Part shown: positions 2,599 to 33,101 of the stretch, one piece after another
How positions within the stretch are numbered: position 1 is the first letter of the stretch
How the letters are laid out: each line of letters begins with the position of its first letter
Source: Gemmataceae bacterium
GTDB taxonomy: Bacteria > Planctomycetota > Planctomycetia > Gemmatales > Gemmataceae
Length of the DNA: 33,407 bases
Direction: 5' to 3'
NCBI GenBank assembly: GCA_022614915.1
Contig: JAKEHV010000095.1
Location: 1-33,407 of the forward strand
The notes under the pieces: model-generated
Seen by the model: only the letters and a program-made list of their open reading frames with translations
Told to the model about the DNA's origin: nothing
Database searches by the model: none
Position numbers and translations under genes: made by a program

Positions 2599-3315
2599 AT
2601 GAACGACTCCGAAATTGCACGGCTCGAAGAAGAATTGCGCTTGAGCCTCCCCAAGATTTATGCTGCCCTCGTTCGGCGCATGATTGGAGACGTTGCCGAG
2701 CTGCCCGGTTCTTTGGAGTACGGCGTGCAGCGGCCGTTTATGATCGGCATCAATGAAATCCTGTCCATCAATCGCAAAGTGCGCGCGACGCCGCAGTCGG
2801 ATTGGCCGGACCACATGTTCGTGTGCGGGTTCGAACATGTCGGCAACGATCTCTACGTGCTGGACTGCCGGGCGAAGAAACCGCGCCTTTTGCACATTCA
2901 CTCGGCGTCGAAAGACCCGTTCCCACCCAGCTCAAAAAAACTGGAGCCGTGCTCGAAGTTTGCCGATCTGGCCGCACTGTACGGTCATGCCTTGGGAAAT
3001 TACCGAGCGTTCGCGGCGAAAGAGCGCAAAGGAAAAAGAGCTCCCCAGCGCGCACCAAGGCCGGCAGATTCCCCTTTATCTGGAAGGAAACGCTCTGCCA
3101 TCGAAGCTGCCGACCCGGATGCGCTCGATTCTCTTGCCAAGCTGCTGGCGGGCTTTGAACTGGTGAAGCCGCGGCGAAAACACTCGATAGCGCTCTTGAC
3201 CAAAGACGTCGTCACCGAGTTGCCCAAGGAGTTATCGCTTAGCCGCCCTGAATGCTTCACGTCGCCCCGGTTAACGCCGCTTGGATTCAAGAGCCGCGCA
3301 CGAAGTAAGCGGTGA
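2599..3315 (+). CDS. SMI1/KNR4 (SUKH)-like protein with repeat-derived C-terminus
   Basis: 238 residues, no signal peptide. The N-terminal 130 residues fit the SUKH fold: I-A-R-L-E-E-E-L with L-P-K-I-Y-A-A-L-V near the start, then a central H-M-F-V-C-G-F-E-H-V-G-N-D-L-Y-V-L-D strand pair. SUKH proteins are scaffold-like and in many bacteria serve as immunity proteins, but no toxin gene is adjacent. Residues after about 140 are Lys/Arg-rich and low in similarity to the family. The last 11 codons and the TGA stop lie in a palindromic repeat (3281-3321) that recurs next to purF, so the present C-terminus was probably created by that element. Start ATG at 2599 lies 15 nt after the preceding stop; no strong ribosome-binding site is visible. 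Confidence 0.65.
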   Translation: MNDSEIARLEEELRLSLPKIYAALVRRMIGDVAELPGSLEYGVQRPFMIGINEILSINRKVRATPQSDWPDHMFVCGFEHVGNDLYVLDCRAKKPRLLHIHSASKDPFPPSSKKLEPCSKFADLAALYGHALGNYRAFAAKERKGKRAPQRAPRPADSPLSGRKRSAIEAADPDALDSLAKLLAGFELVKPRRKHSIALLTKDVVTELPKELSLSRPECFTSPRLTPLGFKSRARSKR

Positions 3316-3321
3316 TTTCAA
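3281..3321 (+). repeat. Half-copy of GCCGCGCACGCAGTAAGCGG-type palindromic repeat
   Basis: This 41-nt stretch (core GAGCCGCGCACGAAGTAAGC) matches one arm of the larger palindrome at 21172-21240, including the flanking TTGGATTCA. It encodes the last residues and the stop codon of the SUKH-like gene. Confidence 0.8.
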
Positions 3322-18200: not shown

Positions 18201-19004
18201 ATGCAAACGGACCTCAGACGCGCCTATTTGATCGAGCTAGTGGGTACGTTCGGCTTGGTGTTTTTCTCCGCCGGCGTCGTGTGCATCAATTACCTGGCGG
18301 TTCCGTTCGGTCAGCCGTTCGACTCGCCCTTGAACCAGCATCAACCGGGGTTAGCCGGCGTGGCGTTGGCGCAGGGCTTGATCCTCGCCGTACTGTTATC
18401 GATAACACTGCCTGTTTCCGGCGGCTACTTGAACCCGGCCGTCACGGTCATGCTCTGGACCATGAACCGGATGGACACGCGGCGGATGTCGTGGTTTTTG
18501 GGGGCGCAGCTTTTAGGGTCGTTCCTGGCCGGTCTGTGTTTGCGCTACACCTTTCACGTCGATCTGCTTCAGTCTGCCCGCTTCGGCACGCCGCACCTGA
18601 AAATCGAGGCTTATCACGAGATTAGCCAAAGGACGCTTTTTGCCGGCACCGGCGTGGAACTTGTCTTGACGTTTTTCGTAGTCCTGGCCATGTTCTGCCT
18701 CGCGCGCAAGAAGGCGCTGACTGCGTCCCAACTGGATCAGGATGAGGCGCGGCGCGCCGCCTGGGCCGGGGGAGCGGCGGCAACAGCGGCAACGCTGGTC
18801 GGCTTTTCCCTTACGGGCGCGGCTTTGAATCCGGCGCGCTGGTTCGGCCCCGCGGTCTGGGAAGCCTGGGTCATCGGCGAGACGGTACGCGGCGGCCCGT
18901 TCGTCGACGTCTTAGTGTTCATCGCCGGCCCGACGCTGGGCGCCTTGCTGGCGGGCCTCTTCTACTTTTGGATCTATCGGCCCGCGCTGCCGGACAAACC
19001 GTAG
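18201..19004 (+). CDS. Aquaporin/glycerol-facilitator family (MIP) channel
   Basis: 267 residues, six membrane helices and two half-helices: N-P-A at 78-80 (G-G-Y-L-N-P-A-V-T) and 210-212 (A-L-N-P-A-R). ATG 18201 lies 1 nt after the peroxidase stop, so translation is probably coupled. Gap-free alignment with E. coli AqpZ around each N-P-A places Q58, T198, A207 and R213 at the four selectivity-filter positions (F43, H174, T183, R189 in AqpZ; W, G, F, R in GlpF). This polar filter differs from both. Water, H2O2 or another small neutral solute is possible; coupling to a peroxidase suggests peroxide, as inference. The TAG stop lies inside a palindromic repeat. Confidence 0.9.
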   Translation: MQTDLRRAYLIELVGTFGLVFFSAGVVCINYLAVPFGQPFDSPLNQHQPGLAGVALAQGLILAVLLSITLPVSGGYLNPAVTVMLWTMNRMDTRRMSWFLGAQLLGSFLAGLCLRYTFHVDLLQSARFGTPHLKIEAYHEISQRTLFAGTGVELVLTFFVVLAMFCLARKKALTASQLDQDEARRAAWAGGAAATAATLVGFSLTGAALNPARWFGPAVWEAWVIGETVRGGPFVDVLVFIAGPTLGALLAGLFYFWIYRPALPDKP

Positions 19005-19086
19005 GACAGGATTCCGATCCTGTCCTGAAATTAGGACGGTATTCAAATCCGTCCCAAGTGCGGACAGGAACGGAATCCTATCCTAC
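19001..19086. repeat. 86-bp nested palindromic repeat (GGACAGGATTCC type)
   Basis: The outer arms GTAGGACAGGATTCC and GGAATCCTATCCTAC pair with one mismatch. Inside are AGGACAGGAT/ATCCTGTCCT (perfect 10-bp stem, 19003-19026) and a GGACGG.AT/AT.CCGTCC hairpin (about 19033-19055). It contains the aquaporin stop codon and ends 11 nt before the DUF3501 start. Confidence 0.85.
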
Positions 19087-19097
19087 GGGCTGATCGC

Positions 19098-20684: not shown

Positions 20685-20693
20685 GGTGAGCTT

Positions 20694-20933
20694 TTGGAGT
20701 GCGGCGCTATTCCGCCGCTTTGGTTTTTGGAGCGTGCGACTTGTCGTGGAACGGATTGACAATCCGTCCTGCTTTAGGCGACTTGTCGCCGCTTTTGGAT
20801 CCTTGGAGTGCGGCGCTATACCGCCGCTTTGGTTTTTTGGAGTGCGTGCGACTTGTCGCCGCTTGGGGTTTTTGGATTCGGGAGTCGCCGCGGTTCAAAA
20901 AACAAAAGCGGCGGAAAAGGGCCGCACTCCAAA
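20694..20933. repeat. Array of GGAGTGCGGCGCTAT / GCGACTTGTCGCCGC repeats
   Basis: Two direct copies of TTGGAGTGCGGCGCTAT followed by CCGCCGCTTTGGTTTTT lie at 20694-20728 and 20803-20837, and a partial inverted copy at 20904-20933. Between them the word GCGACTTGTCGCCGCTT occurs at 20778 and 20848, with a truncated version near 20736, and a GGAACGGATT/AATCCGTCC hairpin lies at 20749-20770. Confidence 0.85.
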
Positions 20934-21114: not shown

Positions 21115-21171
21115 GAAATGGTCTCGTGGAAGGCGCTGGGGTGTGCTTTTTGGATTCACCGCTTACGTTGG

Positions 21172-21240
21172 ATTCACCGCTTACTGCGTGCGCGGCTCTT
21201 GAATTCAGAGCCGCGCACGCAGTAAGCGGTTGAATTCAAT
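21172..21240. repeat. Near-perfect 53-bp palindrome (CCGCTTACTGCGTGCGCGGC type)
   Basis: Arms of about 26 bp (CCGCTTACTGCGTGCGCGGC ... and complement, 21177-21229) meet at TTGAATTCA with a one-base difference. A partial extra copy (TTGGATTCACCGCTTACG) precedes it at about 21150. The purF stop codon lies at the outer end. One arm recurs at 3281-3321. Confidence 0.9.
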
Positions 21241-31035: not shown

Positions 31036-31117
31036 ACCACGGATTACACGGATAACACGGATAAGGAAGTGCTTGGACAGTTTTTCCTTGTCCGTGCTGA
31101 TCCGTGTAATCCGTGGT
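31036..31117. repeat. Large inverted repeat (ACCACGGATTACACGG type)
   Basis: Left arm 31036-31068 (ACCACGGATTACACGGATAA...) and right arm 31084-31117 (complement) pair over about 32 nt with few mismatches and one extra base, around a 15-nt loop. It lies between the Spy-like and dus genes. Confidence 0.9.
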
Positions 31118-31133
31118 CAAATCTTTGACGCGT

Positions 31134-32249
31134 TCACCAGTGCGACACGGGTCCCTTGGGGACGGCGATTTCCGGCAATGCATCTCGCTGCCAAGACGCG
31201 GGCGGTCCCAGGTCGCGCAAGCGGGCGACGATGTCCTCGAAATCCTGGGCGCGCTCGAGCATCACTAGCTGCCGGTGCACTTCTTTGCCCGGCTTTAGGA
31301 CGCGCGTGTACCAGGCGGCCATTTTGCGGAATGTGAGACAGGCGTGACGCTCGCCGCGTTGCTTTAGCAGCAAATCGAAATGGCGGGCCATGAAGTCGAG
31401 CCGGTCTTCGTAGCCCGGACTGGCTAAACCGACTTCCTCCCCGTAGCCGCAGGCTTTAGCCTGCGGATTGTCCGCAGCCTGAAGGCTGCGGCTACGCGTT
31501 TCAGCGTGGACGAGTTGGGGGAAGATCCACGGATTGAGCAAGGCGCCGCGGCCGATGCTGATGCCCGCGCAGCCGGTTTCCCCGAACATGCGCTCGGCGT
31601 CGGCCGCAGTGCGGATGTCGCCATTGCCGATGATCGGGATGCGTTCGACCGCTGCGACGACGGTGCGGATGCCGGCGCGATTGACCTGACCGGAGAAACC
31701 TTGGGCGCGGGTGCGGCCGTGGATCATGACGGCGGCCACGCCCACTTGCTCAAACGCGCGCGCAAAGTTCGGGGCGCTTAGGTCGGCGTCGTCCCAACCC
31801 AAACGCATTTTGACTGTGACCGGGATCTTCACCGCGTTGACGACCTGGCGGACCAGGTCGACGGTGGCGGACGGGCTGCACATCATGGCCGAGCCGCCGC
31901 CGGTCTTGGTGACCTTGTGGACCGGACAGCCCATGTTGATGTCGATGGCCTGTATTCCATAGCCTTCGAGCCATTGCGCGGCGTCGCGCATTTCCTCCGG
32001 AACGCTGCCGAAAATCTGCACCGCGAGTGGGCGATCGTCAGGGCAAGTGTCGATCAGCTCGAGCGTCTTGGGACTGCGATTCACGAGGGCGCGGGCATTC
32101 ACCAGGTCCGTGGTAGCCAGACCGAGGCCGCCCAACTCGCGCACGGCCCGGCGAAAAGGCCAATTGGTGTAGCCGGCCAGCGGAGAGAGAAGGTAGCGCG
32201 ACTCCAGGCGGAGGGGGCCGAAGTACAGTGGCTGAGGTTGCAAAGTCAT
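31134..32249 (-). CDS. dus: tRNA-dihydrouridine synthase with an in-frame palindromic insertion
   Basis: FMN enzyme reducing uridine to dihydrouridine in tRNA. 371 residues, somewhat above the usual 320-350. Motifs are L-S-P-L-A-G-Y-T-N at 21-29, the catalytic Cys108 in D-I-N-M-G-C-P-V-H-K-V, K-M-R-L-G-W at 147-152, I-H-G-R-T-R-A-Q-G-F-S-G and I-G-N-G-D-I at 207-212 and G-I-S-I-G-R-G-A-L at 229-237. Residues about 252-270 (R-S-R-S-L-Q-A-A-D ... C-G-Y-G) are encoded by a 55-bp palindromic repeat lying in frame after N-P-W-I-F, where relatives have a short loop; this accounts for the extra length. The DusB-like subgroup is likely. No strong ribosome-binding site precedes ATG 32249. Confidence 0.94.
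   Translation of the reverse strand: MTLQPQPLYFGPLRLESRYLLSPLAGYTNWPFRRAVRELGGLGLATTDLVNARALVNRSPKTLELIDTCPDDRPLAVQIFGSVPEEMRDAAQWLEGYGIQAIDINMGCPVHKVTKTGGGSAMMCSPSATVDLVRQVVNAVKIPVTVKMRLGWDDADLSAPNFARAFEQVGVAAVMIHGRTRAQGFSGQVNRAGIRTVVAAVERIPIIGNGDIRTAADAERMFGETGCAGISIGRGALLNPWIFPQLVHAETRSRSLQAADNPQAKACGYGEEVGLASPGYEDRLDFMARHFDLLLKQRGERHACLTFRKMAAWYTRVLKPGKEVHRQLVMLERAQDFEDIVARLRDLGPPASWQRDALPEIAVPKGPVSHW
31442..31496. repeat. Palindromic repeat inside dus
   Basis: Two hairpins, GCCGCAGGCT-TT-AGCCTGCGG and CCGCAGCCT-GA-AGGCTGCGG, with outer ends CGTAGCCGCAG and CTGCGGCTACG also complementary. The element is read through in frame by the dus gene. Confidence 0.9.
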
Positions 32250-32954: not shown

Positions 32955-33101
32955 AACCACAGAGACACAGAGGCACAGAGAAGACAAAAACGAAGAATGA
33001 AGAACGAAGATTGAATTGCATCCGACCGCTCATTGTTGATTCTTCCTTCTTCATTGTTCATTCTTCATTTGTTTTCTCTGTGGCTTTGTGTCACTGTGGT
33101 T
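32955..33101. repeat. Long imperfect inverted repeat (AACCACAGAGACACAGAG type)
   Basis: The left arm AACCACAGAGACACAGAGGC... pairs with ...CTTTGTGTCACTGTGGTT at the right end. The arms continue inwards through GAAGAATGAA and its complement, giving an imperfect stem of about 60 nt around an unpaired middle. Confidence 0.8.

Follow-up and report, generated by a model that had tools for sequence, protein, structure and literature searches.

The window, the whole 33,407-nt stretch of DNA analysed here, contains a single gene for a tRNA-dihydrouridine synthase, whose reading frame encloses a compact pair of inverted hairpins. The gene and the parts of the embedded element are as follows:

31134..32249, minus strand: dusB, tRNA-dihydrouridine synthase, 371 aa (TIGR00737, E 1e-92; Pfam Dus, E 1e-73)
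31443..31495, no strand assigned: 53-bp REPIN, GTAG...CTAC, built of a pair of GTAG-tagged REPs in inverted orientation and coding for DusB residues 252-269
31443..31466, plus strand: first REP, GTAGCCGCAGGCTTTAGCCTGCGG, a perfect hairpin, among the commonest copies in the genome (exact copies C227, C313 and C462)
31467..31471, no strand assigned: spacer ATTGT between the two REPs, as read from the sequence
31472..31495, minus strand: second REP, GTAGCCGCAGCCTTCAGGCTGCGG, a perfect hairpin and the other common variant (exact copies C10, C224, C451 and C462)

In a profile search, the product scores above the curated cut-off of NCBIfam TIGR00737, and on this ground a spurious open reading frame was rejected. 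No other dus-like match occurs in the same assembly.

Anatomy of the element within dusB

Positions 31443-31495 read GTAGCCGCAGGCTTTAGCCTGCGG-ATTGT-CCGCAGCCTGAAGGCTGCGGCTAC, that is, two perfect 24-nt hairpins that are mutually inverted across a 5-nt spacer, with the GTAG tags outermost. Each half begins with its tag and continues directly into the hairpin, an arrangement that falls within the definition of GTAG REPs (tag 0-2 nt 5' of the hairpin), and the 53-bp GTAG...CTAC unit consists of two inverted REPs able to fold together. By this anatomy, the element in dusB is a GTAG REP doublet (REPIN). The earlier note had described a 55-bp double hairpin at 31442-31496; the inverted repeat is confirmed (arms 31442-31467 and 31471-31496, 26 nt each, 88% complementary), and those coordinates include one additional pairing base on each side of the GTAG-bounded unit. 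A start-to-start spacing of 28-29 recurs in several doublets of the same genome (G000) and of a relative, G027.

Other repeats are scattered through the window. A second GTAG-tagged inverted repeat, CCGTAGGACAGGATTCCGATCCTGTCC, lies at 18999-19088 with its partner 36 nt away and looks like a REP doublet of a different family. A palindromic unit, TTGGAGTGCGGCGCTATWCCGCCGCTTTGG, is repeated at 20693-20933 as two direct copies and one inverted copy, and a further element (GAGCCGCGCACG...AAGCGGT) occurs in opposite orientations at 3282-3321 and 21168-21230, the latter of which contains a perfect 24-nt inverted repeat. The dusB gene itself is flanked by two other palindromic repeats, AACCACGGATTACACGGAT... 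downstream (31036-31118) and AACCACAGAGACACAGAG... upstream (32955-33101).

Dispersal of the repeat family

Pattern searches of the source assembly, a 601-contig draft that is 86% complete, returned 25 dispersed copies of the half-element at three or fewer mismatches and none for a reversed-pattern control; seven doublets of about 51-61 bp are present. A looser pattern also recovered two more abundant GTAG REP families in this genome, GTAGCCGAAGTCGTGAGACTTCGG and GTAGCCGCATTCGCAAGAATGCGG (C93, C319, C448 and others). In a search of 59 genomes, the dusB-type REP was found outside its own genome only in G027 (77 matches), G028 (79) and G042 (4). The first two of these represent two other genera of the same taxonomic family, and most relatives lack the repeat; the distribution of the family is thus patchy. 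The prediction that copies would be present elsewhere in the parent genome is therefore upheld. The view of a dispersed element that entered a conserved gene in frame is supported as well, with the refinement that it is a GTAG REP doublet rather than an unnamed planctomycete element.

In G027, a 169-aa REP-associated tyrosine transposase (RAYT) is flanked on both sides by this REP in inverted orientation and matches NF047646 with an E value of 2e-21; its 76 bits fall just short of the cut-off of 80. The window's own genome, at its 86% completeness, has three Y1_Tnp matches, none of them flanked by the dusB-type REP, and only weak matches to the RAYT of G027. In G028 (93% complete; loci L088-L108), which holds 79 REP matches, no Y1_Tnp gene was found. 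Mobilisation of the family by a RAYT (a Y1 HuH transposase) is presumed.

Insertion into dusB and its likely consequences for the enzyme

The element covers DusB residues 252-269 in frame, downstream of the NPWIF block at residues 239-243, and the earlier claim of an in-frame gain of about 18 residues at this point is thus borne out. In a protein alignment, all 29 relatives of the same class lack residues at the insertion site, and DusB of the window is longer by a net 19 residues, or exactly 19 codons; at the DNA level, each of the nine relatives compared has a plain short linker. A similar peptide in all relatives, which the earlier note had named as a refuting outcome, is thus not observed. 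That the peptide might be a native, lineage-specific feature of DusB that is palindromic by coincidence derives some plausibility from the variable length of this linker in some Verrucomicrobia, but the suggestion was rejected because the segment is absent from the 29 same-class relatives and each half matches dispersed genome copies exactly, and we regard it as having almost no chance of being correct.

These features very probably reflect the insertion of a REPIN of a dispersed family into the interdomain linker of dusB, where it is read through as 19 extra residues in a protein that likely still works. In the proposed sequence of events, a REPIN from a family dispersed in a Gemmatales-type planctomycete would have inserted into the only dusB copy, at the point where the catalytic barrel passes into the C-terminal helical domain; the ribosome would then read the element through as 19 additional residues, since two of the three frames of each REP are stop-free and the net gain is 57 nt, and insertions in other frames or at other sites would have been lost. 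The net gain exceeds the 53-bp GTAG-to-CTAC unit by 4 nt, which could stem from a compensating small indel or from part of the target. No target-site duplication is visible in the dusB doublet or in other doublets laid side by side.

Because two of three element frames are open, an uninterrupted frame is in itself weak evidence for a working gene, and an insertion whose halves both match common genome copies exactly may be too young to have decayed. It could accordingly be supposed that DusB has been inactivated and is a pseudogene in the making, its frame kept by luck. Against this, all 371 codons are free of stops and frameshifts, the net gain is divisible by three despite the 53-bp unit, and the insertion lies at the sole internal site at which other lineages accept long insertions. 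The motifs NMGCP, KMRLGW, HGRT and GNGD are all present, and every column invariant in 36 sequences is kept, as follows by construction from how these columns were counted; the catalytic motifs are hence intact, as first proposed. We consider inactivation unlikely. An AlphaFold model of the protein has a mean pLDDT of 90.1. In it, the insert first lengthens a helix and then runs on as a loop that separates the barrel from the helical domain; pLDDT in this loop is near 50 and drops to 51 at residues 261-270. This is in keeping with the anticipated loop, and the two domains on either side are modelled with confidence. DusB with the insert very probably still folds and works, since the element lies in an exposed linker that shows no conservation. 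Intact motifs and the single gene copy suggest that the insert is tolerated, and we infer that it is neutral and that enzyme activity is retained.

A repeat copy misjoined into dusB during assembly also deserves mention, as short repeats can mislead assemblers and the draft comprises 601 contigs. Sequencing reads are, however, usually longer than the 53-bp repeat, the reading frame is exactly restored, the assembly has no insert-free dusB, and the same in-frame pattern recurs in other genes, all of which make such an artefact very improbable.

Many copies of the REP overlap either no open reading frame or frames without a known family, and at least four are located in conserved genes. In the same genome, at least three further conserved genes carry the family in frame, and the translated peptides are alike among genes (e.g., DRSLKAAAT...VAAGFSLR). 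In an MlaF-like ABC ATPase, the REP lies just ahead of the signature motif ELSGGM, and relatives align to residues 6-135 and 181-305 with next to no gap between the two stretches on their side. A SirB1-like transglutaminase/TPR protein contains three REPs that add about 35 residues, and a REP is likewise read in frame in the type VI secretion protein TssG, an assignment made from TssG itself rather than from an alignment with relatives. Several REP-spanning frames of this genome were left out of the count for want of a Pfam match, and REPs in frames of L015 and L011 were set aside as probably extragenic, since they lie upstream of the likely start codon. In G027 and G028, five frames that were candidates for conserved genes with an intragenic REP gave no Pfam match.

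The fold of the dusB element raises the prospect that it has been retained for a function, with an mRNA hairpin or the peptide tuning dusB expression or activity. The coding-strand RNA is predicted to fold at -43.3 kcal/mol, compared with -23.7 for shuffled sequences (z = -7.4; 0 of 200 shuffles as good), and for REPs elsewhere an influence on mRNA stability and on transcription has been put forward as a hypothesis (PMC3733652). Yet no relative keeps the insert, the structure model gives the peptide low confidence, and the same REP family occurs in unrelated genes of the genome, which favours chance and tolerance; a retained function appears quite improbable, and insertion of a REPIN that is tolerated in the linker is the reading we adopt.

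The DusB linker in other bacteria

The comparison was widened to 80 DusB relatives of Planctomycetota and Verrucomicrobiota. Counted from the phenylalanine of NPWIF as far as the conserved FRK motif, 73 of these proteins have 45-46 residues, and DusB of the window has 64. All insertions of six or more residues that were counted in this set follow query residue 251, apart from those at the N-terminus and one six-residue case at residue 18. Proteins with an insertion after residue 251 are that of the window, L183, L201, L203, L214, L215 and L224, and the L225 protein is also six residues longer between NPWIF and FRK. In four Verrucomicrobial proteins (L201, L203, L215 and L224), the inserts are palindromes, and each repeat family recurs elsewhere in the genome concerned; the insert of L201 carries a GTAG-tagged hairpin and that of L224 a longer, unrelated palindrome. 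Part of the L224 insert, LLTPALSPFGEERE, resembles a second insert, RPLTPDPSPPQGRGE, which the MlaF-like ATPase (L017:1101-2060, minus strand, C477) has in addition to its REP doublet, and given this similarity the peptide may be a widespread coding repeat.

On a tree, the eight lengthened linkers together require five changes, and well-supported branches force four of these. Since L201, L203, L215 and L224 fall together in one Verrucomicrobial group, a single early lengthening followed by the arrival of different repeats is possible there. At least two separate origins are nonetheless clear, because the window protein and the Verrucomicrobial proteins belong to different phyla. We put at about even the proposition that the linker after NPWIF is a recurrent landing site: Planctomycetota and Verrucomicrobiota would have taken up unrelated dispersed palindromic repeats there independently of each other, with translation into new protein segments, and some shared feature of DNA or selection would turn the linker into a natural experiment, open to repetition, on which protein sites tolerate mobile DNA. 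If one linker is reused by different repeat families across two phyla, its natural variants can test whether insertions survive only in flexible linkers.

The palindromic elements of Rickettsia are found in frame within conserved proteins, and the units of RPE-1 are longer. The earlier comparison with them holds as an analogy, in that the dusB element is likewise a palindrome inserted in frame in a conserved protein, but not as family membership: the Rickettsia elements, from another phylum, have a CGTC tag or the longer RPE-1 units, whereas the dusB element is GTAG-tagged, and no kinship of sequence is claimed. RPE-4 and RPE-6 are CGTC repeats (PMC3733652). The closer counterparts are GTAG REP doublets, or REPINs (PMC3116915, PMC3733652), which share with the dusB element the GTAG tag, the perfect short hairpin, the inverted pairs, a similar spacing and the tens of copies per genome. 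Their RAYT genes are flanked by copies, and for the dusB-type REP the same arrangement is seen in the relative G027. The dusB REP family, GTAGCCGCAGGCTTYAGCCTGCGG, is placed here by anatomy, not by a match to any of the 24 published GTAG families.

That a mobile palindrome should be translated within a gene is an already known kind of event. A 2013 study described REPs within conserved genes of many species, where they add 20-30 residues, with tRNA-modification genes and a PVC bacterium included (PMC3733652), and the dusB case is therefore a further example. It is a clean one, with empty sites: a mobile palindrome has been turned into a protein segment of a tRNA enzyme that is conserved and encoded by a single gene copy, and three sister cases accompany it in one genome. 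A literature search on dihydrouridine synthase together with REPs returned a single paper, which concerns an E. coli repeat. The enzyme is unnamed in the main text of the paper on intragenic REPs (PMC3733652). A limited literature search found no account of different repeat families occupying the same DusB linker in two phyla, and such cross-phylum reuse appears to be undescribed. The nearest parallels are the in-frame REP doublets in conserved genes, tRNA pseudouridine synthases included, of Opitutus terrae and others (PMC3733652). The dusB doublet resembles those of Opitutus terrae in being in frame in a conserved gene, and differs in that the empty site is seen in 29 relatives and the same linker has been used in another phylum.
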